Made by a program: the position numbers and the translations under genes. A stretch of 64,000 nucleotides of DNA from Acidicapsa ligni. Its GTDB lineage: Bacteria > Acidobacteriota > Terriglobia > Terriglobales > Acidobacteriaceae. Under the pieces are notes generated by a model. It saw only the letters and a program-made list of their open reading frames with translations, was not told the origin of the DNA and did no database searches. The stretch lies in assembly GCF_025685655.1 (NCBI RefSeq), contig NZ_JAGSYG010000001.1:186001-250000 (forward strand). Reading direction: 5' to 3'. Shown here piece by piece: positions 4,756 through 19,459 of the stretch (position 1 is its first letter; each line of letters opens with the position of its first letter).

Positions 4756-5679
4756 CTAATTATCGCCGAGCAGTTTGTGGACTTCGTCCATCGTGGCCAT
4801 CGATTCCTGTGCGCCGTGGCGGGTGACAGAGATGGCGGAGGCGGCGGAGGCGAACATCGCGGCCTCAAGCCGGGATTGGCCGAGCATCAGGGCTGCGGCG
4901 TAGGCTCCGTTGAAGGCGTCGCCTGCGCCGGTAGAGTCCACTGCTTTTACCGGGAAGGCCTTGATGGTGGCCTCATTGCCGCCTGCCTGCGCGAAGTAGG
5001 AGCCTTTGGAGCCGAGCTTCAGGATGACGCCTTTTGCGCCTTTCTTGAGGAGTTCTTCTGCTGCCGCGTCGGTGCCTCCGTTGGCGATTGGATGGCCGAG
5101 GTAGAAGGCGGCTTCGGTTTCGTTTGGCGTGAGCCATGTGACGAGCGGCAGTAAGGCGTCGGGCAGCTTGTGGGCGGGCGCGGGGTCCAGAATGAAAGGG
5201 ACTTTTGCTTCGGCGCAGAGCTGGGCGAGGCGCAGGACTGTTTCGAGTGGAATCTCAAGTTGCGCGAGGACGATGCCCGCGTTGGCGATCTTGTCCTTGT
5301 GCTGATCGAGGAAGGCTGGCGTGACCTGGGTGTTGGCTCCGGGGGCGACGACGATGCTGTTTTCGCCTGCGGCGGAGACGGTGATGAGGGCTACTCCGGA
5401 AGAACCGGGAACGGTGCCGACGGCGGCGGTGTCGACTCCGGCGCGGGTGAGGCCGTCGCGGAGTTGCTTGCCCAGGTCATCGGAGCCGAGTTGCCCGATC
5501 ATTTGAACGGAACAGCCGAGGCGGGCTGCGGCTACGGCCTGGTTGGCTCCTTTGCCTCCGGGATGCATCAGGAAGCCGGTACCGAGGATGGTTTCGCCGC
5601 CTGCCGGGATGTGATCAGCGGTGGCGACCAGGTCCATGTTGATGCTGCCTACAACTACGATGGGTTTCATGTCGGACAT
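4756..5679 (-). CDS. rbsK: Ribokinase (PfkB family)
   Basis: 307 residues with the complete PfkB layout. It has the N-terminal VVVGSINMDL strand, the first PfkB signature GGKGANQAVAAARLG near residues 42-56, and the catalytic second signature DSTGAGDAFNGAYA near residues 246-259, in which the second Asp is the general base. It phosphorylates ribose to ribose 5-phosphate in the cytoplasm. An AGGA motif sits 6-7 bases before ATG 5679, which supports this start over ATG 5670. It lies 54 bases after the sugar permease gene on the same strand, so uptake and phosphorylation of ribose are probably co-expressed. Confidence 0.92.
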   Translation of the reverse strand: MSDMKPIVVVGSINMDLVATADHIPAGGETILGTGFLMHPGGKGANQAVAAARLGCSVQMIGQLGSDDLGKQLRDGLTRAGVDTAAVGTVPGSSGVALITVSAAGENSIVVAPGANTQVTPAFLDQHKDKIANAGIVLAQLEIPLETVLRLAQLCAEAKVPFILDPAPAHKLPDALLPLVTWLTPNETEAAFYLGHPIANGGTDAAAEELLKKGAKGVILKLGSKGSYFAQAGGNEATIKAFPVKAVDSTGAGDAFNGAYAAALMLGQSRLEAAMFASAASAISVTRHGAQESMATMDEVHKLLGDN

Positions 5680-5701
5680 AAAAATCCTACGTTCGATGCT
5701 G

Positions 5702-5736
5702 GATCATTCGAGGCTCAATCATTCGAGGCTCGATCA
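5702..5736. repeat. Short tandem repeat, 15-bp unit, 2.3 copies
   Basis: ATCATTCGAGGCTCA at 5703-5717 is followed directly by ATCATTCGAGGCTCG at 5718-5732 and a partial third copy (ATCA). It fills most of the gap between the permease stop and the ribokinase start. No function is evident. Confidence 0.8.
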
Positions 5737-6747
5737 GTATAGAGGTGCGAGGGCTACTAGGGTCAGTCCTGAAAGGAACAGAACGAACATCCAGAAGAGA
5801 AGTTGTTTGGCGCGGCGAGGGGCTGAGGCGAACTCTTTCCAGATGAAGACGCCCCAGGCCGCGGTGATCATGGTGGCTCCCTGACCGATGGAATAGGAGA
5901 CGGCGGGGCCGACGACGCCGGTGCGGGAGGCTACGAAGTTGAGGGTGGCTCCGATGCACCAGATGATGCCGCCGATGATTCCCCAGAGATGCCATGAGGG
6001 GCGCGCCTGTATGTAGCCGCTCATGGCTGCGGGAACCTTGCCGTCGAGCGGCCTGCGCATGAGCAGGTAGTTCACGGGGATGGCGCAGATGGCTACTCCG
6101 ATGACGAAGAAGAATGCTGTGGCGTAGGGGCCGGGTGCGCGTTCGCCGGGTGCCGTGGCGGACATGGCTTTTGATACGAAGGGATAGAAGGTGCCCATGA
6201 GCAGGCCCGCGACAAGGCTGAGGACGATGCCGCGCATGCTGGTGGCTTGACGGGTTGCTTCGCGGGCGCGGTAGGCCAGCGCGTCGCAGAGGATGGCGGC
6301 GGCTACGAGGGCTACTCCGCCGAAGAGCATGAGCGGGTTGCCTGCGGGCGCGAGCAAGTAGCTGCTGACTGCGCCTACGACTAAAGCAAGTCCAATGCCG
6401 ATGGGGAAAGCCACGGCCAGGCCGGCGATGTCGATAGCGGCGACGAGTAACAGGTTGGCGATGTTGAAGAGAATGCCGCCGATGAGGGCGAAGTGAATGT
6501 GCCGGTGATCGGCGTAGTGCAGATCGGCGAGGAAGGAACGGCCGGATGCACCGGCTGATGTGCCGTGGCTACCGAGTGTGAGGCCGAGGAGCAACGCTCC
6601 GGCAAAGAGGCCGATGACGTAGTCCCAGTAGAAAAGCTGGAAACGATAGCCGGGCGCGAGCTTGAGCGTGTTGGCCCATGATCCCCAACAGAGCATGGTG
6701 CAGATCATGAAAAAGAGCGCTACGGCGTAGGTTTCCGGCTGATACAT
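5734..6747 (-). CDS. GRP-type sugar permease (DMT superfamily), probable ribose transporter
   Basis: 337 residues with about ten hydrophobic segments (roughly 8-22, 42-60, 88-108, 112-130, 140-155, 170-190, 205-225, 250-270, 285-300, 315-333). The start YAVALFFMICTMLCWGSWANTLKL is characteristic of GRP/RhaT-like sugar transporters, where a WGSWAN motif lies in the first helix. These are secondary carriers of the inner membrane. The direct link to ribokinase suggests ribose or a related pentose as substrate, which is an inference from context. Upstream, 197 bases separate it from the oxidoreductase gene and contain a strong hairpin. Confidence 0.78.
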   Translation of the reverse strand: MYQPETYAVALFFMICTMLCWGSWANTLKLAPGYRFQLFYWDYVIGLFAGALLLGLTLGSHGTSAGASGRSFLADLHYADHRHIHFALIGGILFNIANLLLVAAIDIAGLAVAFPIGIGLALVVGAVSSYLLAPAGNPLMLFGGVALVAAAILCDALAYRAREATRQATSMRGIVLSLVAGLLMGTFYPFVSKAMSATAPGERAPGPYATAFFFVIGVAICAIPVNYLLMRRPLDGKVPAAMSGYIQARPSWHLWGIIGGIIWCIGATLNFVASRTGVVGPAVSYSIGQGATMITAAWGVFIWKEFASAPRRAKQLLFWMFVLFLSGLTLVALAPLY

Positions 6748-6856
6748 CGATCGTGCCTCACTTGCCTGGATGATCCACGGAGCTATTCGTACAAGAGTGT
6801 ACCTGTTTGAAAAGATTTTTCCTTCGGGGGCTGAATCCGGGGTGCTGTTGCCGGGC

Positions 6857-6888
6857 TGACAGGTACGGGCTAAAGCCCGTACCTGTCA
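6857..6888. repeat. Perfect 14-bp inverted repeat between oxidoreductase and permease genes
   Basis: TGACAGGTACGGGC (6857-6870), loop TAAA, then GCCCGTACCTGTCA (6875-6888). No T-run follows on either strand. It could stop or attenuate minus-strand transcription leaving the oxidoreductase gene, or be a dispersed palindromic element. I cannot tell which from one copy. Confidence 0.75.
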
Positions 6889-6944
6889 ACTGAAGCTTCC
6901 TTCAAAATCGAATGCCAGTGCTCTTCAAACTGACCGGTTGCGGT

Positions 6945-8180
6945 TTAGTAGGGCTGCTTGAATTCGCGGGCTTCTTCCCAGGTGATGCGGCGTTTTTCGC
7001 GGTAGGCGAGGTTGGCCATGTGCGCGGCTACTGCGGAGCGATAGCCGGTCTCTACCGGGGCGTTGGTTTGCCTGTTGCGGCTGCGGATGCAGTCGATCCA
7101 GTTCTGCATGTGGCTGACGTCTTTGGATTGGCCTGTGAGTGGGCGGCCGCTGGGGTTATTGATCTTTTCCGGATAGAAGGTGATGCCGGATGTGGATTTG
7201 CCACTGATCATGTCGGTGGAGCCGCTGAGGTGCTCGATGGTGCCATCGCTGCCGAGGATGCGTTCGCCGAGGCCGAAGTGGCTGTTGCTGAAGGTGGATT
7301 GCCAGACTACGGTGAGGTCGGGGAATTCGAGTGTGACGGCGATGGTATCGGGAACCTGGCGACCGTCTTTTTCTGAGAAGACGCCGCCGCTCATGGTGGC
7401 CGCGAGTGGCTCCTTGAGATCGAGGACGGTCATGATCCAGGCGATCTGGTGGACCATGTTTTCGGTGATGTTACCGCCGGAGAACTCCCAGAAGAGACGC
7501 CAGTTGACGAAGCGATTGCCGTTGAATGCTTCCTTGGGACGGTCATTGAGAAAGAGATCCCAGCCGACGTGCTGCGGGTCGCAGTCGGGCGGGATTGGGC
7601 GCACCCATTGGCCGTGGCCGTGGGGGGAGTTGCGACTCATCCACGACTCGACGAGGGCGACTTTGCCGGGCAGGCCTTGCTTGACCCACCGCCGGGCGTC
7701 GGTGTGCTCGCCGCCACTCTCGTGCTGCAGGCCGATCTGGATGATCTGCTTCGATGTTTCAGCGGCCTTGCGGCAGGCGATGGCTTCTGCGATGTTCCAG
7801 GTCATGGTCTTTTCGCAGTAGAGGTCTTTGCCGGAGTCGAGGGTGTCGTGGAAGTACTTGGAGTGCAGGAACAGAGGGGTGGCTACGATGACGGCGTCTA
7901 TGTCGTGACGGTCGAGGAGCCTGCGCGGATCGTCGTAGGTTTGCGCGCCGGATGCGATTGCCTTGGCCTGATCGCGGTTGCGCGAGTAGACGTCAGCGAT
8001 GGCGACGAACTCGACACCGGGGACACCGATGACGGCGTGCATATCTTCCTGGCCGCGGCTGCCGGCACCGATGATGCCGACGCGCACGCGGTCGTTTGCG
8101 CCGAGAACTTTCGCGGGCGAAGTAAGAGATACGGCTGCTGCTCCGGTGGCGGCTGCTGCGAGAAAGTTTCGGCGGTTCAT
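6945..8180 (-). CDS. TAT-exported Gfo/Idh/MocA family oxidoreductase
   Basis: 411 residues. The leader NRRNFLAAAATGAAAVSL (residues 2-19) is a twin-arginine signal. The Rossmann NAD(P) motif GIIGAGSRGQ is at 35-44. The usual EKP motif is EKT at 123-125: the catalytic Lys is kept but Pro is replaced by Thr. The C-terminal domain contains HVGWDLFL and a long beta-sheet region. Such proteins oxidise or reduce sugar hydroxyls using a tightly bound cofactor, here probably in the periplasm. It starts 35 bases after the isomerase-like gene and is likely co-transcribed with it. Confidence 0.9.
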   Translation of the reverse strand: MNRRNFLAAAATGAAAVSLTSPAKVLGANDRVRVGIIGAGSRGQEDMHAVIGVPGVEFVAIADVYSRNRDQAKAIASGAQTYDDPRRLLDRHDIDAVIVATPLFLHSKYFHDTLDSGKDLYCEKTMTWNIAEAIACRKAAETSKQIIQIGLQHESGGEHTDARRWVKQGLPGKVALVESWMSRNSPHGHGQWVRPIPPDCDPQHVGWDLFLNDRPKEAFNGNRFVNWRLFWEFSGGNITENMVHQIAWIMTVLDLKEPLAATMSGGVFSEKDGRQVPDTIAVTLEFPDLTVVWQSTFSNSHFGLGERILGSDGTIEHLSGSTDMISGKSTSGITFYPEKINNPSGRPLTGQSKDVSHMQNWIDCIRSRNRQTNAPVETGYRSAVAAHMANLAYREKRRITWEEAREFKQPY

Positions 8181-8215
8181 GCGGTCTCCTGTGACGAAGT
8201 TCAGTATCGGAAAGG

Positions 8216-9211
8216 TTATGAGAGGTTGCCTGATTTTTGGAGGGCGTCTTTCATGCCTGCCCAGCTAATGCGCGTGGAGGCTTCGGGTGATCCAGCGCCA
8301 CCCCAGTGTGTTTCAAGGCTGACGGCCTGGCGATAGCCGCTCTGCTTGAGGGCGCGAAACTGGGCGACCCAGTCAGGGATGCCCTGACCGACTGCGGCCC
8401 ATTCGAAGCCGTCGGGATGGGCGGGGGTTGGCTGGGCGACAGCGCACTTCACATGGCAATGGCCGATGCGATTCTTGGGAAGCAGGTTGAAGGCGGTGGG
8501 GAAGGCATCGAGTTCGCCACGAGCGACGGCGTTGCCTGGATCCCAGTTGAGCATGAGGTGCGGGGTGCGCACGGCGGCTAGAGTCTTTACGGATTCACGA
8601 CCGGTTGCGGTGTTGCACTCGAACTCATTTTCGAGAACGAGCAGCAGGCCCTGCTTGCCGACGATGTTGGCTGCTTCTGCCAGCTTGGCGTTGATGGCTG
8701 CGCGATAGGGAGCCTGATCGTCGAGACGCCAGAAGTCAAAGCAGCGGATGCGCTCGGTCTTGAATTTGCGGGCGAGAGCGATGGTTTTTTCAAGCACCTC
8801 ATCCTGCTGCTTGAAGCCGAAGCTGGCACCGAAGGAATCGTTTTTAGGGCTGAACTTGGATCGCGGTGCGCCAGGCCAATCGGTCTTGAAGAGCGGGCTG
8901 GCGATGTCGGTAACGCGCAGCTTGTACTTGTCGAGAATGGCGTTGGCCCTGGCGATTTCTTCGTCACTGAGGTCCATGATGTTCTTGGTCCAGAGAGAGC
9001 GCAGCTCGACCCACTGGAGGCCGAAATCGTTAGCGATGACGGAGCAGGCATGATCAAAATCCGGTGAAATTTCGTCGCTGATGACGGCGATGCGAAAGGG
9101 CGAATTTGCGACTGCGGCTTGTAGCATTGCGGGGGATAATCCGTAGGCGAGGACGGCCGCGCCCGTAGCTCCGGCGGCGTGCAGGAATCCGCGGCGTGAG
9201 ACTGAAGACAT
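8216..9211 (-). CDS. TAT-exported sugar phosphate isomerase/epimerase-like TIM barrel
   Basis: 331 residues. SRRGFLHAAGATGAAVLAYG (residues 5-24) is a twin-arginine leader. The rest is an AP-endonuclease-2-type (xylose isomerase-like) TIM barrel. Likely metal ligands are Glu in LVLENEFE, Asp in LNWDPGN, His in GHCHVK and Glu in AVSLETHWGG. Exported members of this family are found next to Gfo/Idh oxidoreductases and may act on oxidised (3-keto) sugars rather than on sugar phosphates; that is inference here. It is the first gene of a minus-strand group and is divergent from another member of the same family at 9663. Confidence 0.87.
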   Translation of the reverse strand: MSSVSRRGFLHAAGATGAAVLAYGLSPAMLQAAVANSPFRIAVISDEISPDFDHACSVIANDFGLQWVELRSLWTKNIMDLSDEEIARANAILDKYKLRVTDIASPLFKTDWPGAPRSKFSPKNDSFGASFGFKQQDEVLEKTIALARKFKTERIRCFDFWRLDDQAPYRAAINAKLAEAANIVGKQGLLLVLENEFECNTATGRESVKTLAAVRTPHLMLNWDPGNAVARGELDAFPTAFNLLPKNRIGHCHVKCAVAQPTPAHPDGFEWAAVGQGIPDWVAQFRALKQSGYRQAVSLETHWGGAGSPEASTRISWAGMKDALQKSGNLS

Positions 9212-9417
9212 GATTGCTCCTATATGGCTGAGACGGATGATGCGAAGTAATAGTCGATGGAGCTTGCTTGCGTAATTAGGCGACTCGTCGATCGAGAGAT
9301 TGTGAGTCGAGCCATATTAGAGCATTGCTGTGCCTGCTGTGTAGTGGTGGTTTTTGGGGATGTGGGAAGGTTGGGGTAGAAGTGGATTTTCTTTTGGGGA
9401 TGGCGGACAGGGCGGCG

Positions 9418-9598
9418 AGGACAACGGCAGAAGCAGATTCCCTTCGGGAATGACAGCCAGAAAGGCAAGGGCAACGGCAAAGGCAAGGGCAACAGCAAGG
9501 GCAACTGCAAGGGCAACTGCAACGGCAGAAGCAGATTCCCTTCGGGAATGAAAGCCAGAACGGCGACTGCAAGGGAAACTGCAAGGGCAAAGACGGAG
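9418..9598 (+). repeat. Dispersed core-array repeat, locus A (two cores)
   Basis: Two palindromic cores ATTCCCTTCGGGAAT (9437-9451 and 9535-9549), each preceded by AGCAG and followed by GA(C/A)AGCCAGAA. Between and after them runs a T-poor array of 6-nt units such as AAGGGC, AACGGC and AACTGC. The 451-base gap 9212-9662 lies between divergent genes and holds nothing else that I recognise. Frames through this repeat give only Lys/Ala/Arg/Thr or Leu/Pro low-complexity peptides, so I do not call genes in it. Confidence 0.85.
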
Positions 9599-9662
9599 GC
9601 TACGGTTGGGGAATCTTTTGGCTGCTGTACATCGGAAGAGGCAATGCTCTACTATCGCGGCC

Positions 9663-10532
9663 ATGATCTCTGCTACTAGTCGACGGAGTTTTTTGCGTGC
9701 CGGGGTGGTTGTTACTGCGGCGGCGTGTGCGTTTTCTGCTGGTGAATCCGGTGCGGCGGCGGTGACCGAAAGCTCTGCTGCGGAGCCTCGCATTCGGCTT
9801 GGTGTGGCTAGCTATTCCTTTCATAAATTTGACCGTGCGCATGTGATTGAGTTTATGAAGCAGTTGAATGTGAAGTATCTCAATGCCAAGGATGCGAACG
9901 ATCATCTGCCGATGAAGCCGCCTGAAGCTACGCTGGCGGCGGTGGATGCTTACAAGGCTGCGGGCATTGAACTGACTGGCGCGGGAGTGGTTTATTTTTC
10001 GAAGGATGAGGCGGATGTTCGCGAGAAATTTGAGTATTGCAAGCGGGCTGGGCTTTCGCTGATTGTGGGCAGTCCGGTACGCGAGGCGCTGCCGGTGGTG
10101 GAGCGATTTGTGAAGCAGTACGATATGCGGCTGGCGATTCACAATCATGGGCCGGAGGACAAGGAATGGCCATCGCCGCTCGACATCCTGAAGGAGATTG
10201 AGCCTATGGATAAGCGCATTGGATTGTGCATCGATGTGGGCCATACGGCGCGAACGGGGACGGATGTGGTGCAGGCTATTCACACGGCCGGGGCGCGGGT
10301 TTTTGACCTGCACATGAAGGATCTGGCCGACATGAAGGTGAAGGAGAGCCAGGTTGCTGTGGGTGATGGCAAGATGCCGGTGCGGGGGATTTTTGAGGCG
10401 CTGCATGCGATCGGATATAAGGGATTTGTCGATCTTGAATATGAGATTCATGATGACGATCCGCTGCCGGGCATGATGAAGAGCTTTGCTTATATGCGCG
10501 GGGTGCTGGCGGGGATGCGGTATAGCGATTAG
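9663..10532 (+). CDS. TAT-exported sugar phosphate isomerase/epimerase-like TIM barrel
   Basis: 289 residues from ATG 9663. I chose this start because it places the twin-arginine leader SRRSFLRAGVVVTAAACAFS at residues 6-25; an in-frame ATG 57 bases upstream would bury it. Family motifs are the barrel start RLGVASYSFHKFD, AIHNHGPED, GLCIDVGHTAR, VFDLHMKDL and FVDLEYEIHDDD, which supply the His, Asp and Glu metal ligands. It is probably periplasmic. It lies alone on the plus strand and is divergent from the similar protein at 8216-9211; the repeat element sits between them. Confidence 0.88.
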   Translation: MISATSRRSFLRAGVVVTAAACAFSAGESGAAAVTESSAAEPRIRLGVASYSFHKFDRAHVIEFMKQLNVKYLNAKDANDHLPMKPPEATLAAVDAYKAAGIELTGAGVVYFSKDEADVREKFEYCKRAGLSLIVGSPVREALPVVERFVKQYDMRLAIHNHGPEDKEWPSPLDILKEIEPMDKRIGLCIDVGHTARTGTDVVQAIHTAGARVFDLHMKDLADMKVKESQVAVGDGKMPVRGIFEALHAIGYKGFVDLEYEIHDDDPLPGMMKSFAYMRGVLAGMRYSD

Positions 10533-10648
10533 GCGCTATGGCCATAGCGCGAGAAGTGAAGCGAACCGTTCCGGTGGAAGCGGCATCTTAATCAGGAACA
10601 GGATGTTCGGTGAAACTTAATTTCGATCAGGAAGAGAAAGAGGTCACA

Positions 10649-11548
10649 ATGATTTCTGCTCCAGCTCATCTGCGAAATGGTTTGATTCTCGCGCTTGTGG
10701 CGTTGTCGTTGAGTGGTTGCAAATCGCAGCAGGATAAGGCAATCGAGCAGGCCAAGATAGAGGCCGCGAAGACGGGACAACCACAGCAGGTTGTGACGAC
10801 TGACAAGAACGGCAACACGGTAACTACTACGGTGCAGCCTCCGGCGCAGGGTCAGAAAGATGAGGTGGTGACTACGACGGTCACGCCTAAGGCAGCGGCG
10901 GGAACACCGGCGGCTGCTCCGGCTGAGAGTGCGGCGGCGGGGGATGCGCAGTCGGCTGGGACCAGCCCTGCTCCGGCATCGGCAGCAGCTCCGGCTCCGG
11001 CTATGACACCAGCGCCTGTACCGGCGCCCAAACCTGAGATTCGTGTCTCGAAGGGGACGGCGTTGGCGATTCGGATCAATCAGCGCATCAGCGTGAAGAC
11101 CAGCCAGAGTGGCGATCGATTTACGGGGCAGGTTGTTGAGCCGGTGACGGACGGTAGCGGCAACGTGGTTATTCCCAAGGGATCGCCGGTTCGCGGGGTG
11201 GTTGCTGTGTCGCATGAGCGGGGAAAATTCAAGGGTGCTTCAGAGCTTGAGTTGCGCCTGACATCACTGTCGTTGAATGGGACCAGCTATCCGTTGACGA
11301 CGCATGACCTGGTGCGCAGCAAGAAGGGCAAGGGCAAGCGATCGACTGCTTTCATTGGCGGCGGTACTGGGCTGGGGCTGCTGTTGGGCGGTGTGGCCGG
11401 GGGCGGTAAGGGCGCTTTGATCGGCGGCCTGGCTGGCGCGGGCGCGGGAACTGCGGGCGCGGGGCTTACGGGGAATAAGGATTTGGTGATCCAGGCGGAG
11501 ACGATTGTGCGATTCAAGCTGGCGGACGATCTGGTGATTCAGCCGTAA
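10649..11548 (+). CDS. Predicted lipoprotein with glycine-zipper C-terminus
   Basis: 299 residues. ATG 10649 follows GAAAGAGG at a suitable distance and is preferred to GTG 10610. The leader ends in a lipobox (LSLSGCKS). Residues 20-140 are low complexity, rich in Ala, Pro, Thr and Gln. A folded domain of about 100 residues follows (KGTALAIRINQRISVKTSQSGDRF ... VVIPKGSPVRGVV), then a Lys-rich linker and a Gly-rich glycine-zipper-like segment (IGGGTGLGLLLGGVAGGGKG). Similar proteins are common in acidobacteria and uncharacterised; the zipper suggests membrane contact. A textbook terminator follows. Confidence 0.75.
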   Translation: MISAPAHLRNGLILALVALSLSGCKSQQDKAIEQAKIEAAKTGQPQQVVTTDKNGNTVTTTVQPPAQGQKDEVVTTTVTPKAAAGTPAAAPAESAAAGDAQSAGTSPAPASAAAPAPAMTPAPVPAPKPEIRVSKGTALAIRINQRISVKTSQSGDRFTGQVVEPVTDGSGNVVIPKGSPVRGVVAVSHERGKFKGASELELRLTSLSLNGTSYPLTTHDLVRSKKGKGKRSTAFIGGGTGLGLLLGGVAGGGKGALIGGLAGAGAGTAGAGLTGNKDLVIQAETIVRFKLADDLVIQP

Positions 11549-11568
11549 CGTTTCTCTATTCTGCGGAT

Positions 11569-11610
11569 AAAAAATCGATGCCAGCCACTGCGGCTGGCAT
11601 CGATTTTTTT
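11569..11610. terminator. Rho-independent terminator
   Basis: 13-bp stem ATCGATGCCAGCC (11574-11586), loop ACTGC, GGCTGGCATCGAT (11592-11604), then a T-run to 11610. A-rich sequence on the other side makes it usable from both strands. It follows the lipoprotein gene and faces the convergent hydrolase gene. Confidence 0.93.
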
Positions 11611-11698
11611 ATAGACCGGAATGTCTGTGCGTATTTCTCTGCTCGCTTGGACTTGTGCCTGCTGGGGCTTTTGGCGAATTGCCGCAGGCCTGATTGGC

Positions 11699-12637
11699 TC
11701 AGGGTTTGGCCGGAGGCAGGATTTTGATGGTGTGCAGCCAGAGTTCTACGGATTTGGGCCATGTGGTGATGGGAAGCGCGGTGCGGCGCAGGCCGTAGCC
11801 GTGGCCACCTTCGGCGTAAATGTGCAGTTCGGATGGGACTTTTGCCTGTTTCAATTCTTCGAAATAGACGGTTGAGTTTTCGATGTGGACTGGGTCGTCC
11901 TCGGCTTGTACGAGGAATGTGGGTGGTGTATCGGCGGTGACGTGGATGTCGGGGTTGGGTTCGAAGTTCTTTTCGGCGATGGCCAGGTAGCCGGGATAGA
12001 CGATCACGGCGAAGTCGGGACGGCAGCTTAGCTGATCCGCGGCGTCGATGGGGTCGTAGAGGCGCTTGTCGAAGTGGGTGCTGAGGGCGGCTGAGAGGTG
12101 ACCTCCGGCGGAGAAGCCAAGGACGCCGATGCGCTTGGGGTCGATGTGCCATTCGGCGGCATGGCTGCGAACGATGCCCATTGTTCGCTGTGCATCCTGG
12201 AGCGCGGCTGGGGATTTGGGATAGGGGCCGGTGTTTGGAACGCGGTACTTGAGCAGGATGCAGGTGATGCCGGCGGAGTTGAGCCAGTCGCAGACTTCTG
12301 TGCCCTCAAGGTCGATGGCGAGTATCTGGTAGCCTCCGCCGGGGAAGACGACGACTGCTGCGCCGGTGTTGTTGCCTTTGGGCGAATAGACGGTGAGTGT
12401 GGGGGTGGCGACGTTGCCGAGGCGCACGAGCGGTCTGCCGGCGATGAGGTTGTCCTTTGCCGAGGTGGTGTCGACTTCCGGCCCTTTGGTGGTGTCGGGG
12501 CCTGGTGCGGTGGTGGGCCAGATGTTCATCGTGATGTGGCCGGGAGCTGGCTGCCATGCTGGCTTTTGGGCAAGGCCGGTCAGCGGGATGGAGGCGGCGA
12601 AAAGAACTACGGCTGGGGTGAGGAGGCTTTTGGGCAT
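11699..12637 (-). CDS. Exported alpha/beta hydrolase (BD-FAE/esterase-like)
   Basis: 312 residues from ATG 12637. A longer in-frame start at 12835 runs into repeat DNA and would hide the signal peptide MPKSLLTPAVVLFAASIPLTGLAQ. The enzyme has the oxyanion motif VVVFPGGGYQ (about 96-104), the nucleophile elbow GFSAGG with Ser176, an acid in QAEDDP (Asp247 or Asp248), and His279 in EGGHGYG. This layout fits exported carbohydrate-ester deacylases placed beside glycan-degradation genes. The true substrate is unknown. The gene is divergent from the NupG-like permease and converges on the lipoprotein gene. Confidence 0.85.
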   Translation of the reverse strand: MPKSLLTPAVVLFAASIPLTGLAQKPAWQPAPGHITMNIWPTTAPGPDTTKGPEVDTTSAKDNLIAGRPLVRLGNVATPTLTVYSPKGNNTGAAVVVFPGGGYQILAIDLEGTEVCDWLNSAGITCILLKYRVPNTGPYPKSPAALQDAQRTMGIVRSHAAEWHIDPKRIGVLGFSAGGHLSAALSTHFDKRLYDPIDAADQLSCRPDFAVIVYPGYLAIAEKNFEPNPDIHVTADTPPTFLVQAEDDPVHIENSTVYFEELKQAKVPSELHIYAEGGHGYGLRRTALPITTWPKSVELWLHTIKILPPAKP

Positions 12638-12765
12638 TTGATGGAACTCCGCTCGGAAGTGAGCACCGATGATTGCAGTCGTGGGTGGTGGGGCGCAAGC
12701 TGGCTTTGGGATGGTTGTTCTTTTTGGGGAGGGGGAAGCGGGTTCTTTTTGGGAATTATGGATAG

Positions 12766-12895
12766 AACGGCAAGGGCAAAGGCAACAGAAGAAGCAGATT
12801 CCCTGCGGGAATGACAGACAGAACTGCAAGGGCAACTACAAGGGCAAAAGCAACGACAACGGCAAGGGCAACGGCAAAAGCTAGGGCTACGGCAA
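12766..12895 (+). repeat. Dispersed core-array repeat, locus B (one core)
   Basis: One core with a TGC loop, ATTCCCTGCGGGAAT (12798-12812), preceded by AGCAG and followed by GACAGACAGAA. T-poor 6-nt-unit sequence lies on both sides. It sits in the 377-base gap between the divergent hydrolase (start 12637) and permease (start 13015), where I see no other feature. Confidence 0.82.
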
Positions 12896-13014
12896 AGTTC
12901 GGGACTGCGATGCTGTGTGGAAACTTGCCTGCTGTTGGGAGCTTACTGGAGGGGCGGTGCTTGTTGTATCTTTGCTTGCAGCCGCTTAAATAAAAGGTCT
13001 TGCCGGAGATAAAG

Positions 13015-14265
13015 ATGCCGATTGCTTCAACGCTGATTAAAACTAGACTTAGCCTGATGATGTTCCTGGAGTATTTTATCTGGGGTGCGTGGTATGTGAC
13101 GTTGGGAACGTTCACTGCAGAGGGTCTTCACTTTACGGGTACGCAGGTGGGGCTGGCGGCTGGTGCTACGGCGATTGGCGCGATGGTGTCGCCGTTCTTT
13201 GTGGGCCTGGTTGCGGACCGGTTGTTTGCTACGCAGCGGGTGCTGGCGGCGTTACATTGTTTTGGGGCGGCGGTGCTGTTTCTGGCTTCGCTGCAAGGGG
13301 ATTTCGCGAGATTTTACTGGCTTGAGCTGTTGTATTGCCTGTGCTTTATGCCGACGCTGGCGTTGACCAATTCCCTTGCCTTTCGCCAGATGCGCGATCC
13401 GCAACTGGAGTTCGGCCCGATCCGCGTGCTGGGTACCGCGGGCTGGATTGTGGCCGGGCTGTTGATTGGAACGCTCAAGCTGGAGGCGACGGCGGTGCCG
13501 ATGCAGCTGGCGGCGGGCGCTTCGCTGGTGATGGCTTTTTACTGCCTGAGTCTGCCGCACACGCCGCCTATCACGCGCGTGGGACGGGTGACGGTGCAGT
13601 CTATTTTTCCGATCGAGGCGGTGAAGCTGCTGGGCGATCGATCGATGGCGATTTTTGCGATCGCTTCGTTTTTGATCTGCATTCCGCTGCAGTTTTATTA
13701 CGCGTTTACGAATCTCTATCTCAATGACATTCATGTGAGCAATGCGGCCTCCAAGATGACGGGTGGGCAGATTTCTGAGCTGACGTGCATGCTGCTGATC
13801 CCGTGGTTCTTTCGCAGGCTGGGCGTGAAGTACATGCTGGTGGCGGGGATGGTGGCATGGACGCTGCGCTATCTGTGCTTTGCTTATGGCAATGCGAGCT
13901 CGGGTATGTGGATGTTGTGGGCGGGCATTGTGCTGCACGGCATCTGCTATGACTTCTTTTTTGTGACGGGGCAGATCTACATCGATCGCAAGGCTTCGCT
14001 GGCGTTGCGTGCGGCAGCGCAGGGGTTGATGACTTTTCTCACCTACGGAGCGGGGATGTTTGTCGGTTCGTGGCTGTCGGGGCTGGTGGTGGAGCATTAC
14101 TCCTCTACGGTCGCGGGTATTGTTACTTATCAATGGCGGGCTATCTGGCTCTTCCCTGCGGCGGCTTCTGCTATCGTCCTCATGTTGTTCCTGGCGACAT
14201 TTTCAGATCGCGAACGCGGGCGGGGTGTGGGCGAATCGGAGTTCACTGCACAGACGACACCGTAA
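13015..14265 (+). CDS. NupG/XapB-like nucleoside:H+ symporter (MFS)
   Basis: 416 residues from ATG 13015, which has CGGAG eight bases upstream; an in-frame TTG at 13000 is less likely. About twelve hydrophobic segments are present. The first, LMMFLEYFIWGAWYVTLGTF, and GPIRVLGTAGWIVAGLLIG near 140 are typical of the nucleoside:proton symporter family. NupG-like carriers bring nucleosides across the inner membrane. In acidobacteria and Bacteroidetes they often sit beside Gfo/Idh and isomerase genes, as here, so a sugar or sugar-derivative substrate is also possible. The next gene starts 46 bases downstream on the same strand. Confidence 0.85.
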   Translation: MPIASTLIKTRLSLMMFLEYFIWGAWYVTLGTFTAEGLHFTGTQVGLAAGATAIGAMVSPFFVGLVADRLFATQRVLAALHCFGAAVLFLASLQGDFARFYWLELLYCLCFMPTLALTNSLAFRQMRDPQLEFGPIRVLGTAGWIVAGLLIGTLKLEATAVPMQLAAGASLVMAFYCLSLPHTPPITRVGRVTVQSIFPIEAVKLLGDRSMAIFAIASFLICIPLQFYYAFTNLYLNDIHVSNAASKMTGGQISELTCMLLIPWFFRRLGVKYMLVAGMVAWTLRYLCFAYGNASSGMWMLWAGIVLHGICYDFFFVTGQIYIDRKASLALRAAAQGLMTFLTYGAGMFVGSWLSGLVVEHYSSTVAGIVTYQWRAIWLFPAAASAIVLMLFLATFSDRERGRGVGESEFTAQTTP

Positions 14266-14311
14266 CTGAAAAACAAAAGCAATCCAGTTCCCACGAGAAG
14301 GAGAATCTACT

Positions 14312-15229
14312 ATGCGTGTGCTTTCGAGACGACGATTTCTGATTACAACAGGCGGCGCGGGCGCTGCGGCTGTTGCTGCTTCATTGCTGCCTCGCATGGC
14401 CGTGGCGAGCCCGATGGGACTGCCGATCGGCATTCAGCTTTACTCGGTCGGCAAGCCGCTGACGGAAGATACGGCGGGAACGCTGACGCAGGTGTACGCG
14501 ATGGGCTATCGCGAAGTGGAAACGGCGGGATACGCGAAGAAGACTGCGAAGGAATTTCGCGCGCTGCTGGATGCGGCGGGCCTGGTGTGTCCGAGCGCGC
14601 ATTTGCAGCTCTCCGGAGACGGGCTGGATGCACAGTTTGACGATGCACACGCGCTGGGAGCGCATTATGCGGTGAGCTCGTTGCTGTCCGTGAAGGATTC
14701 CGGGGATTCCAAGGCGGCTTCGACGGACCCGAAGGCAGCGGCGCTGGAGCGGTTCAAGAGGCTGGCTGCGCGGATGAATGAGCTTGGGAAAAAGGCCAAT
14801 GCCGCGGGCTTGCAGTATGCGTATCACAACCACAATATCGAGTTTCAAAAGATGCCGGATGGTACGCCGGGCTACGATGTGTTGCTGAAGGAAACGGATC
14901 CGGAGCTGGTGAAGTTTGAAATCGATTGCGGATGGATGGTGATTGCAGGTGGCAGCCCGGTGGCCTATTTCAAGAAGTATCCGGGCCGCTTCCGCATGCT
15001 GCATATCAAGGACTTCAAGCCGGTTTCGAAGCCGGTTATTGGATTGGGTGGACCGGACCGTCCGCAGGGAGTCGATCTGGGCACGGGGTTTGTGGATTAT
15101 GCGCCGATCTTCGCTGCGGGCAACGCTGCTGGAATTGAACATGCGTTTGTCGAGCAGGAAGCTCCCTATCCAGTGTCGGAGCTGGTGTCGGTGAAGAACG
15201 ACGTCGCATTCATGCAGAAGTTCAATTAA
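14312..15229 (+). CDS. TAT-exported sugar phosphate isomerase/epimerase-like TIM barrel
   Basis: 305 residues. The leader SRRRFLITTGGAGAAAVAASLLP (residues 5-27) has three Arg residues in the twin-arginine motif. Barrel motifs include IGIQLYSVGKPL, YAYHNHNIEFQ, FEIDCGWMV, MLHIKDFK and AFVEQEAPY, giving the expected His, Asp and Glu metal ligands. GAGAAGGAG lies six bases before ATG 14312. It lies between the NupG-like permease and a TAT-exported oxidoreductase, and all three are probably one operon ending at the terminator at 16626. The protein should act in the periplasm. Confidence 0.88.
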   Translation: MRVLSRRRFLITTGGAGAAAVAASLLPRMAVASPMGLPIGIQLYSVGKPLTEDTAGTLTQVYAMGYREVETAGYAKKTAKEFRALLDAAGLVCPSAHLQLSGDGLDAQFDDAHALGAHYAVSSLLSVKDSGDSKAASTDPKAAALERFKRLAARMNELGKKANAAGLQYAYHNHNIEFQKMPDGTPGYDVLLKETDPELVKFEIDCGWMVIAGGSPVAYFKKYPGRFRMLHIKDFKPVSKPVIGLGGPDRPQGVDLGTGFVDYAPIFAAGNAAGIEHAFVEQEAPYPVSELVSVKNDVAFMQKFN

Positions 15230-15263
15230 GAAAATACACAACGGTTGACCGGGGAGGATGCAG

Positions 15264-16604
15264 ATGTTGAATCGCAGAAATTTTCTGAGGGCGGCGAGCG
15301 TGGCTACGGCCGGTTCGCTGGCCGGAGTACGGCTAAACGCGCTAACCGGGGCTGAAGGCGGCAGAAAGATCGCGGCGAACGATCATATTCAACTGGCGTT
15401 GATTGGCGCCGGAATCCAGGGACAAGGCGATACGAAGGTCGCGCTGGAGGTGCCGGGCGTGAAGCTGGTGGCTGTGGCGGACTGCTACCAGGGCAGACTG
15501 GATCACAGCAAGGAGCTGTGGGGTAACGATGTTTTCACCACTCGCGATTACGCGGAGATACTGGCGCGCACGGATGTGGATGCGGTCATTGTTGCTACTC
15601 CCGATCACTGGCATATGAAGGCGGCGACGGATGCGATGAAGGCGGGCAAGGACGTCTATTGCGAGAAGCCGATGATTCATCTGTATTCCGATGGGCCGGA
15701 GATTATTGAGACGGCGCGTGCGACGGGGCGGATCATTCAGATCGGCAGCCAGCGTGTGAGTTCGAAGATTTATCTGAAGGCGAAGGAATTGCTGGCGGCG
15801 GGAGCCATCGGCGAATTGAACATGGTTTCGGCGCGCTGGGATCGCAATTCGGCGATGGGTGCGTGGGACTATACCGTTCCTCTGGATGCATCGACGGAGA
15901 CCTGCGACTGGCCACGCTTTCTGGGAACGGCTCCGGCGATTCCTTTCAACCCGGAACACTTCTTTCAATGGCGCAAGTGGAAGGCTTATGGAAGTGGTGT
16001 GGCGGGCGATTTGTTTGTGCATCTTTTCAGCGGCACGCACTTCATTACCGGCTCGAAAGGCCCAACGCGCGCGATGGCGACTGGTGGATTGCGCTTCTGG
16101 AAAGATGGCCGGGATGCTCCGGATGTGATGCTGGCGTTGTTCGATTATCCGGAGGGATTCAACCTGAGTTTGCGGGTGAACTTTGTGAATGGCGGCGAGG
16201 ACAACGAGGGCTTCCTGTTCACGGGTTCGGAGGGCACGATGGAGATCGCCGGCAACTCGGTGATCGTGAGCCGGCAGCCGCGTGAGAAGGGTCCGGGACT
16301 ATCGATTGGGACTTACGCGGATGCGATGCAGGGTCGGTTGATCGAGGAGTATCACAAGAAATATCCGATACCGCATCCGATGTCTCTGCCTCCGCTGGGC
16401 GAGGACAAGTATGTGGCTGAGCCGGGATACAGCGATCATTACGATCACTTCTACAACTTCTTCAGCTCGGTGCGTTCGCGCAAGCCGGTGGTGGAGGATG
16501 CTGTCTTCGGTTTCCGGGCGGCGGGCGCTGCGCTGCTGAGCAACCTGAGCTATGAGAAAGACTCCATCATTCATTGGGATCCGGAAGCGATGAAGATCGT
16601 TTAG
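15264..16604 (+). CDS. TAT-exported Gfo/Idh/MocA family oxidoreductase
   Basis: 446 residues from ATG 15264. GGGGAGG at 15251-15257 touches the alternative ATG 15258 but stands six bases from 15264, which I therefore prefer. NRRNFLRAASVATAGSLAG (residues 3-21) is a twin-arginine leader. The Rossmann motif ALIGAGIQGQG is near 45-55 and the canonical EKP at 134-136. The C-terminal domain has an FFQWRKWKAYGSGVAGDLFVHL stretch typical of exported members with a bound cofactor. Together with the preceding isomerase-like protein and permease it forms an apparent sugar-processing operon. Confidence 0.9.
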   Translation: MLNRRNFLRAASVATAGSLAGVRLNALTGAEGGRKIAANDHIQLALIGAGIQGQGDTKVALEVPGVKLVAVADCYQGRLDHSKELWGNDVFTTRDYAEILARTDVDAVIVATPDHWHMKAATDAMKAGKDVYCEKPMIHLYSDGPEIIETARATGRIIQIGSQRVSSKIYLKAKELLAAGAIGELNMVSARWDRNSAMGAWDYTVPLDASTETCDWPRFLGTAPAIPFNPEHFFQWRKWKAYGSGVAGDLFVHLFSGTHFITGSKGPTRAMATGGLRFWKDGRDAPDVMLALFDYPEGFNLSLRVNFVNGGEDNEGFLFTGSEGTMEIAGNSVIVSRQPREKGPGLSIGTYADAMQGRLIEEYHKKYPIPHPMSLPPLGEDKYVAEPGYSDHYDHFYNFFSSVRSRKPVVEDAVFGFRAAGAALLSNLSYEKDSIIHWDPEAMKIV

Positions 16605-16915: not shown

Positions 16916-16963
16916 CGGACACGCTGCCTGTTACTTACTGCGGTGAATTTTTGGGAGGGCAGG

Positions 16964-19459
16964 ATGCTGGATACGATTCAGGACGCGATGCGGGATTTGC
17001 GGTTTGCGATTCGGCAGCTACGGCGGTCGGGTGCTTTTACGCTGACGGTGATTCTGACGCTGGCTCTGGGCATTGGGTTGAATGCGGCCATCTTCACGAT
17101 GGTGGACTGCGTGCTGCTGCGCCCCCTTGGATATCACGACGCTGATCGCATCTACGGCATCAATACTCGTTTTACCGACGAGGGAAGGGCGATTCCTCGT
17201 GTGGGCGGGGCAGATTTTACAGATCTGGCGAGCAGGATCACCTCGCTGGAGTCTGCAGCTTATTACCAGTCTTATCCGGATGGCCTGCAGGCGGGCTCGC
17301 GCACTTTGTACACGGATATTGGGCATGTCAGTCCGCTATTTGGAGAGGTGATGGGCGTGGAGCCGCTGGCTGGCCGACTCTTTCAGAGCGATCGCAATGC
17401 GGTTGTTACCGCGCCACAAGAAGCAATGGTGGGCAGTGCGTTTGCGCGACAAAATTTCGGCAGCGCGGCACAGGCTCTCGGGCAGACCCTGAAATATGGC
17501 GGCAAGCTGCGCGTCATCGTCGGGGTGATGCCGGATGGATTCTCATTTCCCGGCAAGTCGCAGGTATGGATCGAATTGCCATCGGTTCCGGAATGGCCGA
17601 GCAGAAGCTCATATAACCAGCAGGTGGTTGCCAAGGTGAAGCCCGGGGTATCGGCGGAGCAATTGAATGCGGAGATGGCAACGCTCTCCCGGCAACTGAG
17701 TTCGGCTTATCCCGACGACAAGCTGAAGGCGCTTGAGGCGGTGCCGTTGCAGGAGCAGATTGTCGGCAAGATTCGCCCGACGCTGCGGCTGCTGATGGGT
17801 TCGGTGATTGTGGTGCTGCTGATTGTGTGCGCCAACATTACGCATCTGCAACTGGTGCGGGGGACGCTGTTGCGGCGCGAGGTGACGATTCGGGCGGCGC
17901 TGGGAGCAACGCGGAGTGCGCTGGCTCGCCGGGCGGCGTTAGAGGTGCTGCTGCTGGCGGTTGGCGGATGCGCGGTTGGAGTGCTGATCGCACTGCCTGC
18001 GTTGAAGCTGCTGGTGCGGCTGGCGCCGACGGAGATTCCGCGGCTGGCAGATGTGCGGCTGAACTTGGACGTAATTGGATTTTCGTTCCTGATCAGTCTG
18101 CTGACGATGGGTTTGACGGCTCTGCTGCCGCTGTGGCGTTCGTGGCGGATCGATCCTGCATCGGCGATGAGGCAGGACTCGGGGCGCGGGATGGAGACGC
18201 GCGGCTCAGGACGATTGCGCCAGGGGTTGATCGTTGGCGAAGTTGCTTTGACGCTGATGTTGAGCGTGGCGGCTTTGCTGCTGGTGCGGCAGCTTATCGC
18301 GGAGTCGCAGCAGTACCTGGGATTTGTGCCGGAGAAGCTGGTGGTGCTGGATACGCATGCCACCAGTGCAGCGGCGGAGATGATGGCCAATCACACGGGA
18401 GATGCGCCGTCTACCCCCGAGATGCTGGCTGCGTACAAGCAGGCCCAGGCAGCCGATGTGGAGGCGCTGCGCTCGCTGTTGGAGGGGATTCGCAGCGTGC
18501 CGGGGGTGGCGAGTGCGACGGCTGTGTCGGGTGCTCCGATGACGGACGGCGGCTCCAATGGGAACTACGCCATTCGCGGGGTGAATGAATTCAAAGCTCC
18601 GTATACGGGTATGCCGCATGCGAACTTTACCGCTGTGACTGCGGGTTATTTTGAGACGATGAGCATTCCGGTGTTGAAGGGACGCGGGATTACGGATGCG
18701 GATCGATCGGGTTCAGAGCAGGTGATACTTATCAGCGAATCCCTGGCGAGACAAAGGTTTGCGGGAGTGGACCCGATCGGGAAACAAATCATGTTTGGAT
18801 GGGACGACGTTAACGGCTGGTCTACGATTGTCGGGGTCGTGGGGGATGTGCGGCAGGATTCGCCTGCTTCGGTTCCTTATCCAACCGTGTACGTATCCGT
18901 GGCGCAACACCCTATAATCGCGCCCGATATGCAGATTATGGTGCGGACCCATGCCGATGCAGGGGCGATGGCGGCTACGCTGGACAAGTACGTGAAGCGT
19001 CAGTTCCCTACGGTTGCTGTGCAGACGACGAGGATGCGGGAGAATGTAGGCGAGTCGGAGCGGGCGCAGCACTTCAGAACGCTGCTCTTTGGCAGCTTTG
19101 CCGGAGTGAGCATTTTACTGGCGATGATTGGGATGTATGGCGTGACGGCGTATACGGTGGCGCAGCGGCGGTTTGAGTTTGCGCTGCGCTTTGCGCTGGG
19201 TGCGCAACGCGGGCAAGTGCTCGCATCTGTGCTGCAGAGAGCGCTGAGCGTGGCGGGGGTTGGAGTGGTCAGTGGAGTGGTGTTGAGCCTGGCGTTGATG
19301 CGGGCGATCGGCACTCTCTTTGGACAGATGCCTGCATTCGATGCGATGTCGTATGGGATTGCTGCGGCGGGTGTGTTGCTGATTGCGTTATCGGCTACGT
19401 TGCTGCCCGCTTACCGGGCAGCAACGGTTGAGCCGATGCAGGTGCTGCGGAACGAGTAG
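16964..19459 (+). CDS. Duplicated MacB/FtsX-type ABC permease without own ATPase (ADOP family)
   Basis: 831 residues from ATG 16964, preceded by GGGAGGGCAGG; GTG 16943 is an alternative. The arrangement is that of the acidobacterial duplicated orphan permeases. It has an N-terminal helix (about 24-45), a periplasmic MacB-like domain (about 50-230), an FtsX core of three helices (about 270-400), then a second helix, periplasmic domain (about 440-690) and FtsX core (about 705-830). Repeated signs are RGTLLRREVTIRAALGATRSALARR in the first half and RRFEFALRFALGAQRGQV in the second. Such proteins may be export or mechanotransmission permeases. No ATPase gene is adjacent. Confidence 0.9.
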   Translation: MLDTIQDAMRDLRFAIRQLRRSGAFTLTVILTLALGIGLNAAIFTMVDCVLLRPLGYHDADRIYGINTRFTDEGRAIPRVGGADFTDLASRITSLESAAYYQSYPDGLQAGSRTLYTDIGHVSPLFGEVMGVEPLAGRLFQSDRNAVVTAPQEAMVGSAFARQNFGSAAQALGQTLKYGGKLRVIVGVMPDGFSFPGKSQVWIELPSVPEWPSRSSYNQQVVAKVKPGVSAEQLNAEMATLSRQLSSAYPDDKLKALEAVPLQEQIVGKIRPTLRLLMGSVIVVLLIVCANITHLQLVRGTLLRREVTIRAALGATRSALARRAALEVLLLAVGGCAVGVLIALPALKLLVRLAPTEIPRLADVRLNLDVIGFSFLISLLTMGLTALLPLWRSWRIDPASAMRQDSGRGMETRGSGRLRQGLIVGEVALTLMLSVAALLLVRQLIAESQQYLGFVPEKLVVLDTHATSAAAEMMANHTGDAPSTPEMLAAYKQAQAADVEALRSLLEGIRSVPGVASATAVSGAPMTDGGSNGNYAIRGVNEFKAPYTGMPHANFTAVTAGYFETMSIPVLKGRGITDADRSGSEQVILISESLARQRFAGVDPIGKQIMFGWDDVNGWSTIVGVVGDVRQDSPASVPYPTVYVSVAQHPIIAPDMQIMVRTHADAGAMAATLDKYVKRQFPTVAVQTTRMRENVGESERAQHFRTLLFGSFAGVSILLAMIGMYGVTAYTVAQRRFEFALRFALGAQRGQVLASVLQRALSVAGVGVVSGVVLSLALMRAIGTLFGQMPAFDAMSYGIAAAGVLLIALSATLLPAYRAATVEPMQVLRNE

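Follow-up and report, generated by a model that had tools for sequence, protein, structure and literature searches.

Two neighbouring gene sets of Acidicapsa ligni that may release sugars from glycosides in the periplasm by 3-keto chemistry

Within 12 kb (positions 4756-16604) of a 64,000-nucleotide stretch of the Acidicapsa ligni genome (bases 186001-250000 of contig 1, hereafter the window; genome size 5.68 Mb), two Gfo/Idh/MocA oxidoreductases (Gfo1 and Gfo2) and three xylose-isomerase-like TIM barrels (TIM1, TIM2 and TIM3) are encoded together with an esterase-like hydrolase, two permeases and a ribokinase-like kinase. The genes form two units, one in which TIM2 is divergent from a TIM1-Gfo1-permease-ribokinase row, and one composed of NupG, TIM3 and Gfo2. 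On balance, it is probable that these two neighbouring enzyme sets are periplasmic and use 3-keto chemistry, and not a glycosidase, to set sugars free from glycosides. An initial inspection of the DNA letters (the sequence-only reading) had proposed periplasmic glycoside oxidation followed by TIM-barrel cleavage. Such an oxidise-then-cleave route appears to be the best-supported reading for TIM3 and Gfo2, where lyase structures are closest and the active-site residues invariant, and for TIM2 acting with a Gfo protein; it is doubtful for TIM1, which has Glu in place of the eliminase His. The pathway type is already known, and the features of this variant are the TIM1 branch, the twin-arginine translocation (Tat) leaders on all five proteins and the exchangeable dehydrogenase, the first and the last of these being new here.

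TIM3 and TIM2 as candidate lyases

By sequence, predicted fold and active-site residues, TIM3 is placed with AL1 and BT1, titled 3-keto-beta-glucopyranoside-1,2-lyases in the PDB (8tcd and 8tct), and with the beta-eliminase AtOGE. The predicted model of TIM3 (mean pLDDT 91.4) aligned (VIA-align) with AL1 at Z 29.7 (root-mean-square deviation 2.0, 238 residues aligned, 37% identity), with BT1 at Z 29.2 (35% identity) and with AtOGE (8bvk) at Z 22.4, and profile E-values to AL1 and BT1 ranged from 5e-54 to 1e-53. The residues reported for AtOGE are His132, His134, Asp163, His189 and Glu233, and its H134A variant is inactive (PMC10628242). In a profile alignment, these five correspond to His172, His174, Asp205, His231 and Glu281 of TIM3, and the lyase and metal residues are invariant in 30/30 aligned sequences (28 of 40 fetched loci, locus L090 and the window). 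By homology, a beta-elimination step is well supported for TIM3. Its nearest relatives, in G091, G033, Acidicapsa dinghuensis and the metagenome-assembled genome (MAG) G121, keep a NupG-type transporter beside TIM3. Across 40 TIM3-like loci, 8 contain a Gfo gene, 4 a GMC gene and 1 a DUF1080 gene, at least one of the three being present in 11, as against 0/15 control stretches of 12 kb taken from the A. ligni genome only. L090 carries, one after another, genes for gluconate-2-dehydrogenase subunit 3, a GMC oxidoreductase, the TIM3-like protein and a 3-keto-disaccharide hydrolase.

TIM2 shares the His-x-His pattern of TIM3 and is probably a 3-keto-glycoside lyase as well. Its site (H160-N-H162, D191, H217, E259) is invariant in 22/22 aligned sequences and supplies His-x-His with the D, H and E metal set, the comparison to AtOGE being made at the level of the pattern and not by direct alignment. 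The nearest solved sequences, 3lmz and 3p6l, are both uncharacterised entries. Of 121 genomes searched at E 1e-25, 40 gave a TIM2 match, and 39 of these had a single one. The three TIM barrels gave no BLAST match to one another at 1e-3 and are therefore not recent duplicates. The alignments comprise 27 of 31 TIM1 relatives from wide-flank loci (A1), 28 of 40 TIM3 loci plus L090 (A2) and 21 of 28 TIM2 relatives (A3), the remainder being near-duplicates, broken or extended open reading frames (ORFs) or simply unpicked, and A4-A6 are hand-picked subsets.

Gfo1 and Gfo2

Members of the Gfo/Idh/MocA family are marked by a Rossmann motif for nicotinamide adenine dinucleotide (NAD), an E-K(-P) motif and a downstream His. 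All three are found in Gfo1 (GxGxxG, EKT and E240/H244, invariant in 19/19 aligned) and in Gfo2 (GxGxxG, EKP and D249/H253, invariant in 21/21), which are 30% identical to each other; the position of Glu240 and Asp249 is one to which we assume a functional role. For both proteins the best NCBIfam model is BT_2158_fam (NF058561, glycoside 3-dehydrogenase), with 107.5 bits for Gfo1 and 111.7 for Gfo2 against a cut-off of 750. The best PDB sequence matches of Gfo2 are 8tdf and 8tdh, which presumably stem from the same study as AL1 and BT1, and 8tdi, named glucuronide-3-dehydrogenase, is also matched.

Relatives of Gfo2 with at least 63% identity occur in 22 other genomes of the class. A TIM3-like gene near a Gfo2 relative was also found in G121 and G122. 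A DUF1080 gene lies near Gfo2 relatives in 2/20 loci (L239, L252). This list of 20 Gfo2 loci (L236-L255) is biased with respect to TIM neighbours, as G026, G111 and G072, having been fetched under TIM3, were left out of it, and its member L254 is a 46%-identity relative and not an orthologue. In the whole genome of A. ligni, 17 Gfo, 11 AP_endonuc_2 and 5 DUF1080 3-keto-disaccharide hydrolase matches were counted, none of the 5 DUF1080 matches being inside the window.

Twin-arginine leaders

A twin-arginine (RR) motif with a hydrophobic stretch was found in 5/5 of the proteins Gfo1, Gfo2, TIM1, TIM2 and TIM3, which bears out the Tat leaders that the sequence-only reading had assigned to them. 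Leaders of this kind are present in 5/10 region ORFs (at least 150 aa) and 6/44 window ORFs, versus 3/204 ORFs in 300 kb sampled from this genome (in one of the three, the motif lies at residue 101 of the ORF); the Fisher P of about 4e-6 is not clean, because the region was chosen for this feature. The motif is retained in most relatives, namely 87/104 for TIM1, 52/56 for TIM2, 39/41 for TIM3, 32/34 for Gfo1 and 25/25 for Gfo2, compared with 4/66 outer-membrane receptors. Smaller and noisier controls gave 3/13 for MFS, 0/5 for GMC, 2/5 for MR_MLE, 1/4 for NupG and 2/4 for FtsX. These counts took every seed hit above an author-chosen score threshold, as were the thresholds for context and uronate genes below, and considered the RR motif without hydrophobicity in the first 110 residues of the longest ORF, which may add or miss motifs. 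With one TatC match in the genome, the five proteins have the properties of Tat substrates, and their export is predicted. Other Gfo and TIM proteins of the genome also carry a Tat-like leader, which points to a habit of the organism rather than of this locus.

Several side observations concern these leaders. An adjacent Gfo/TIM pair elsewhere in the genome (C1:700846-702207, locus L019; ORFs at 700846 and 701458) has Tat-like leaders on both proteins. In 8 of 80 TIM1 loci (L337, L341, L346, L349, L352, L359, L367 and L372), a TIM1 lacking the motif directly follows an RR-bearing TIM barrel, in several cases with an overlap of a few bases between the ORFs, and L090 (7126-8981) and L087 are listed with the same tandem arrangement. 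Tat hitch-hiking of a complex is a possible explanation of these pairs. A further six TIM1 proteins without the motif have no such TIM neighbour.

TIM1 and its exchangeable dehydrogenase

Judged by its residues, TIM1 is a conserved family whose active site is intact and different. The site (E194-N-E196, D224, H251/H253, E300), of epimerase/isomerase type, is kept in 28/28 aligned sequences, with Glu196 in all 28 at the position of AtOGE His134, an assignment made from the register of E-N-E and H-N-H on the strand before the conserved Asp and not from direct alignment. Since it has Glu at the essential His of AtOGE, TIM1 is unlikely to be the eliminase of the TIM1-Gfo1 pair, and a role as hydratase, isomerase or epimerase is more likely for it than one as lyase. 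TIM1 is present in 60/121 genomes of the class (E 1e-20). A single-sequence search of the PDB with TIM1 gave no match at E 0.01. Its predicted model (mean pLDDT 92.3) had the isomerase Art22 as best structural match (Z 27.9), with UlaE (25.6) and AtHYD (8ro4; 25.5) level with each other and ketose 3-epimerases at 23-24.

The gene context of TIM1 was sampled in its 80 best relatives, a Gfo gene being counted if it lay on the same strand, at most 3.5 kb downstream and above a chosen score. A second dehydrogenase type, GfoX, followed TIM1 in 24 loci (26 without the strand, distance and score filters) and Gfo1 in 23; both were found in 0 and neither in 30, and 3 loci ended too soon. The pairing of Gfo and TIM genes that the sequence-only reading suggested checking across genomes is conserved, in that Gfo1 recurs after TIM1, and at the same time loose, given the loci with GfoX or with none. 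GfoX is about 27% identical to Gfo1 and non-orthologous. None of the Gfo proteins at the 17 places in the A. ligni genome, all compared, reaches 30% with GfoX, so this genome seems to be without it. The notion that TIM1-Gfo1 is peculiar to this genome, raised by 20 class-sample TIM1 flanks with GfoX instead, was dropped in view of the 80 relatives.

TIM2 is present in 33 of the 80 loci, comprising 19/24 with GfoX, 3/23 with Gfo1 and 11/33 others, and therefore belongs mainly with GfoX. TIM1, Gfo1 and TIM2 occur together in the window and likewise in L296, L318 and L333. Furthermore, 28/80 loci carry an outer-membrane receptor of the CarboxypepD_reg/OMP type above 400 bits; in the window, no such receptor adjoins TIM1. 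The full row of TIM2, TIM1, Gfo1, permease and RbsK was found in one of the 80 loci, the MAG locus L296. Acidicapsa dinghuensis (L383; Acidobacteriota, Terriglobia, Acidobacteriaceae) keeps TIM1, TIM2, the protein at 10610-11548, the esterase, NupG, TIM3, Gfo2 and FtsX, with no Gfo1, permease or RbsK in this block, and the block is also kept in a MAG, split over two contigs (L296, L384). TIM1 is present twice in A. dinghuensis, on separate scaffolds (L297, L299), and one of these copies has neither TIM2 nor a Gfo in its 12-kb locus.

Substrate clues

Uronate genes (UxaC, MFS, Eda, MR_MLE) lie near TIM1 in 13/80 loci, that is, 8/26 with GfoX, 5/23 with Gfo1 and 0/31 without Gfo, and were found in 0/40 TIM3 and 0/20 Gfo2 loci. 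Several of the bearing loci come from related bog MAGs, so the 13 are not independent events; the uronate seeds were themselves taken from TIM1 loci, and L345 passes narrowly (259 vs 250 bits). Pfam identifies UxaC in L302 and L333, KDPG aldolase in L333 and UxaE in L318, and the MFS gene, given by Pfam as MFS_1 only, is read as hexuronate-type. Where a relative has a uronate isomerase next to its TIM1 set, a hexuronide is the probable substrate. The genome of A. ligni has one UxaC match, located elsewhere (C4:466613-467995). The kinase of the window is a ribokinase by model (329.4 bits, above the TIGR02152 cut-off of 299.65), and together with the permease it suggests that the substrate here may be a sugar other than a hexuronide. 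Nucleosides, suggested by the nucleoside symporter family and ribokinase, have only these family names behind them and are not proposed.

Proposed mechanism

From the observed gene content, leader motifs, homology, residue conservation and gene order, we infer the location, cofactor, substrate and every reaction of the following scheme, in which periplasmic oxidation, beta-elimination, hydration and reduction would succeed one another. The esterase, as weak family hits suggest, would strip acyl groups. A Gfo protein, behaving as its family would predict, would fold with NAD(P) in the cytoplasm, be exported by Tat with its cofactor and oxidise the C3 hydroxyl of the sugar. A metal-dependent His-x-His TIM barrel (TIM3, probably TIM2) would then take the acidic C2 proton and expel the aglycone by beta-elimination. 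In the last periplasmic step, on the model of D3dgpA, the same Gfo with its retained NADH would turn the 3-keto sugar into free sugar by reduction and so be ready again, the net result being a redox-neutral hydrolysis without free periplasmic NAD. Import of the products would fall to the two permeases (DMT-type and NupG-type), and one product would be phosphorylated by the ribokinase-like kinase of the first set.

A more specific version is put forward tentatively and is rather doubtful. Here, TIM1, a Gfo of either non-orthologous type and TIM2 would form a wholly periplasmic, Tat-exported, redox-neutral "split GH4" machine, in which the NAD crosses the membrane together with Gfo, a single hydride is passed on by Gfo from the glycoside to the 3-keto product, the lyase is TIM2, and TIM1 represents a new hydratase family. 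It would stand beside an outer-membrane receptor in about one third of the Acidobacteriota loci examined and, in some lineages, would pass hexuronates to UxaC, uronides being cleaved without glucuronidase or polysaccharide lyase.

Comparison with known systems

Nasseri et al. reportedly described, in Nature in 2024, a 3-keto-glycoside pathway of Bacteroides and Alistipes with BT2158 and the lyases AL1 and BT1, the latter two being named in PDB titles. The present sets resemble that pathway in combining a Gfo/Idh/MocA dehydrogenase with a metal-dependent TIM-barrel lyase, TIM3 being 35-37% identical to AL1 and BT1 in structure alignment. They differ in phylum, in the TIM1 family without the lyase His and in a window without a DUF1080 match. 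Tat leaders on all five proteins are a feature here, the leaders of the Bacteroides proteins lying outside the comparison. The DgpB/C lyase that goes with the C-glycoside dehydrogenases DgpA and D3dgpA, compared below, presumably belongs to another TIM family.

The systems cited next are compared on parts of the respective papers. A periplasmic location and glycoside 3-dehydrogenase activity are ascribed to BT2158 (PMC11300592), so the general idea is not new. The Agrobacterium tumefaciens operon GlycDH/AtOGE/AtHYD/Gfo encodes a 3-dehydrogenase, an eliminase, a putative hydratase and a reductase, and the AtOGE residues are kept in TIM3; unlike that operon, a single Gfo per set would here both oxidise and reduce, and export is unmentioned in the sections of that paper considered (PMC10628242). 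The levoglucosan route LgdA/LgdB1/LgdB2/LgdC employs two oxidoreductases and two proteins annotated as sugar isomerases for oxidation, elimination, hydration and reduction, matching the enzyme types and the four-step chemistry proposed here, and differs in its adjacent sugar ABC transporter genes, its substrate and the exogenous NAD+ of its assays (PMC7676230). D3dgpA, a Gfo/Idh/MocA protein with almost equimolar bound NAD(H), works by a ping-pong mechanism and is re-oxidised by 3-oxo-glucose, providing the model for the cofactor recycling proposed above; DgpA and D3dgpA differ in acting on C- and O-glycosides and in belonging to gut Dorea (PMC11239390). In Caulobacter, a periplasmic DUF1080 route has been argued, with a LacABC-type dehydrogenase and a DUF1080 hydrolase in place of Gfo and TIM lyase (PMC9007349). 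Among open-licence publications, surveyed by titles and abstract openings and with most subscription papers outside this scope, no treatment of a Tat-exported 3-keto route in Acidobacteria was found.

Contrary evidence and alternative explanations

Several observations weigh against the proposed 3-keto glycoside chemistry of the two sets. On the protein side, Gfo1 and Gfo2 score far under the BT_2158 cut-off, Gfo1 has Glu240 where Gfo2 has Asp249, and TIM1 lacks the eliminase His in every aligned sequence; with Art22 as the best fold match of TIM1 and AtHYD only level with UlaE, the step assigned to it is a guess. On the side of gene order, 30/80 TIM1 relatives have no counted downstream Gfo, A. 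dinghuensis has no Gfo1 by TIM1, Gfo, GMC and DUF1080 genes are all missing from 29/40 TIM3-like loci (the control being drawn from one genome), and a TIM3-like gene is near the Gfo2 relative in only 3/22 class genomes (G026, G111, G072). TIM2 accompanies the Gfo1 type of the window so seldom that the TIM1-Gfo1-TIM2 triad is weakly supported. Finally, no uronate gene lies beside the set of the window, and such genes were found in 0/18 TIM2-anchored loci, 0/10 distant TIM1 loci, 2/20 class TIM1 loci and 1/12 class Gfo1 loci.

The strongest alternative, given a little less than an even chance, is that the units share only a neighbourhood and serve different substrates, with NupG-TIM3-Gfo2 as a lyase unit and TIM1-Gfo1 (with TIM2) as another. 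It draws on Gfo2 relatives that lack any TIM seed in all 20 loci of the biased list described above, on TIM1 sets whose 12-kb loci contain neither TIM3 nor Gfo2, and on the restriction of uronate genes to TIM1 as opposed to TIM3 loci. It is opposed by the block of TIM1, TIM2, the 10610-11548 protein, esterase and NupG-TIM3-Gfo2 that is kept in A. dinghuensis and, over two contigs, in a MAG, and it does not contradict the proposed chemistry.

It is also conceivable, if unlikely, that TIM1-Gfo1 epimerises glycosides in the manner of E. coli YcjS/YcjR, oxidising C3, epimerising a neighbouring carbon of the 3-keto sugar and reducing it again. The E/D/H/E set shared with xylose-isomerase-like epimerases, the presence of Art22, UlaE and ketose 3-epimerases among the profile and structural neighbours, the missing eliminase His and the usual absence of TIM2 beside TIM1-Gfo1 agree with this. 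Conversely, the His-x-His TIM2 joins TIM1 in most GfoX loci and in the window, as would fit a two-TIM elimination and hydration pair, and AtHYD, titled 2-hydroxy-3-keto-glucal hydratase, is as close structurally as UlaE, if less so than Art22.

Exported cyclitol (inositol) catabolism of the IolG/IolE type is very improbable: the NCBIfam IolG model matches Gfo1 and Gfo2 and the IolE model TIM2 and TIM3, but far under the cut-offs (78.7 and 83.6 of 355 for TIGR04380; 39.9 and 57.7 of 290 for TIGR04379), and TIM3 is nearer to 3-keto-glucoside lyases (Z 29.7) than to IolE structures (22-23). There is equally little to be expected from a GFOR-like oxidoreductase for osmoprotectants or aldonates with unrelated TIM barrels; the PDB matches of Gfo1 and Gfo2 include GFOR structures, and in Granulicella sp. 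WH15 high sugar is reported, in the part of the study considered, to up-regulate a gfo4 gene (PMC7074687), but the GFOR matches rank far under 8tdf and 8tdh, and Gfo is recurrently coupled to TIM1.

Gene content and layout of the region

The features are collected in Table 1. The ORFs of RbsK, permease, Gfo1, TIM1, TIM2, esterase, NupG, TIM3 and Gfo2 lie where the sequence-only reading had placed them, and Pfam and NCBIfam agree with its account of two Gfo/Idh/MocA proteins, three isomerase-like TIM barrels, an esterase-like hydrolase, two permeases and a ribokinase. The esterase leader was judged by eye on the translation. The intergenic gaps between TIM1 and Gfo1 (35 bases), permease and RbsK (54), NupG and TIM3 (46) and TIM3 and Gfo2 (34) are short and look like those of operons; 197 bases separate Gfo1 from the permease. 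TIM2 probably starts at the ATG at 9663 and not at 9606, and the real start of the esterase is probably downstream of the listed TTG. The esterase scored 210.8 bits with PaeX and 141.7 with AxeA1 in NCBIfam, both under cut-off, and is also present in MAG locus L384, cut by the contig end. The 10610-11548 protein matched no family above cut-off in the Pfam search. A promoter scan gave 3 promoter-like sites (3.8 expected) and 18 terminator-like sites (11.9 expected, sd 3.6) and was not used.

Table 1. Genes of the two sets and their immediate neighbours in the window
Feature	Position	Strand	Family match and conservation
RbsK, PfkB-family sugar kinase, ribokinase by NCBIfam	4756-5679	-	Pfam PfkB; kept in L296
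DMT-type sugar/ureide permease	5734-6747	-	Pfam Ureide_permease/Sugar_transport; kept in L296
Gfo1, Gfo/Idh/MocA oxidoreductase, predicted Tat leader	6945-8180	-	Pfam GFO_IDH_MocA
TIM1, xylose-isomerase-like TIM barrel, predicted Tat leader, E-N-E/D/H/E site	8216-9211	-	Pfam AP_endonuc_2
TIM2, TIM barrel, predicted Tat leader, H-N-H/D/H/E site	9663-10532 (ORF listed from 9606)	+	Pfam AP_endonuc_2
Conserved protein, lipobox-like leader (LSGC, by eye)	10610-11548	+	Kept in same place in L296, L297/L383, L298
Esterase-like alpha/beta-hydrolase	11699-12835	-	Pfam alpha/beta hydrolase; kept in L297/L383
NupG-type MFS transporter	13000-14265	+	Pfam Nuc_H_symport; adjoins TIM3 orthologues in L196, L197, L383, L384
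TIM3, TIM barrel, predicted Tat leader, AL1/BT1 and AtOGE relative	14312-15229	+	Pfam AP_endonuc_2
Gfo2, Gfo/Idh/MocA oxidoreductase, predicted Tat leader	15258/15264-16604	+	Pfam GFO_IDH_MocA
MacB/FtsX-like permease, pathway role not claimed	16943-19459	+	Neighbour kept in L383, L384
Gfo3, third Gfo/Idh/MocA protein	19462-20646	-	

Gfo3, just beyond the region and absent from the list of the sequence-only reading, has no RR motif. It has a leader by eye, and if it were Sec-exported its cofactor would have to be found outside. Gfo3 relatives occur in the MAG locus L384, after FtsX, and in L252, in the vicinity of Gfo2 and a DUF1080 gene. Two outer-membrane-receptor-like proteins, encoded on the minus strand at 23970-27512 and 32873-36397, show a weak relationship (164 and 147 bits) to the receptor that relatives carry upstream of TIM1.

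Implications

Sugar release by 3-keto chemistry, independent of glycosidases, is a recent addition to carbohydrate metabolism, reported from Bacteroides of the gut, from Agrobacterium and from levoglucosan users. The sets described here make it possible to test how an NAD-dependent enzyme could keep working in a compartment in which free NAD is not expected. If soil Acidobacteriota do run such a route in their periplasm, with NAD brought in by Tat, counts of glycosidase genes would miss part of the degradation carried out by these abundant bacteria.

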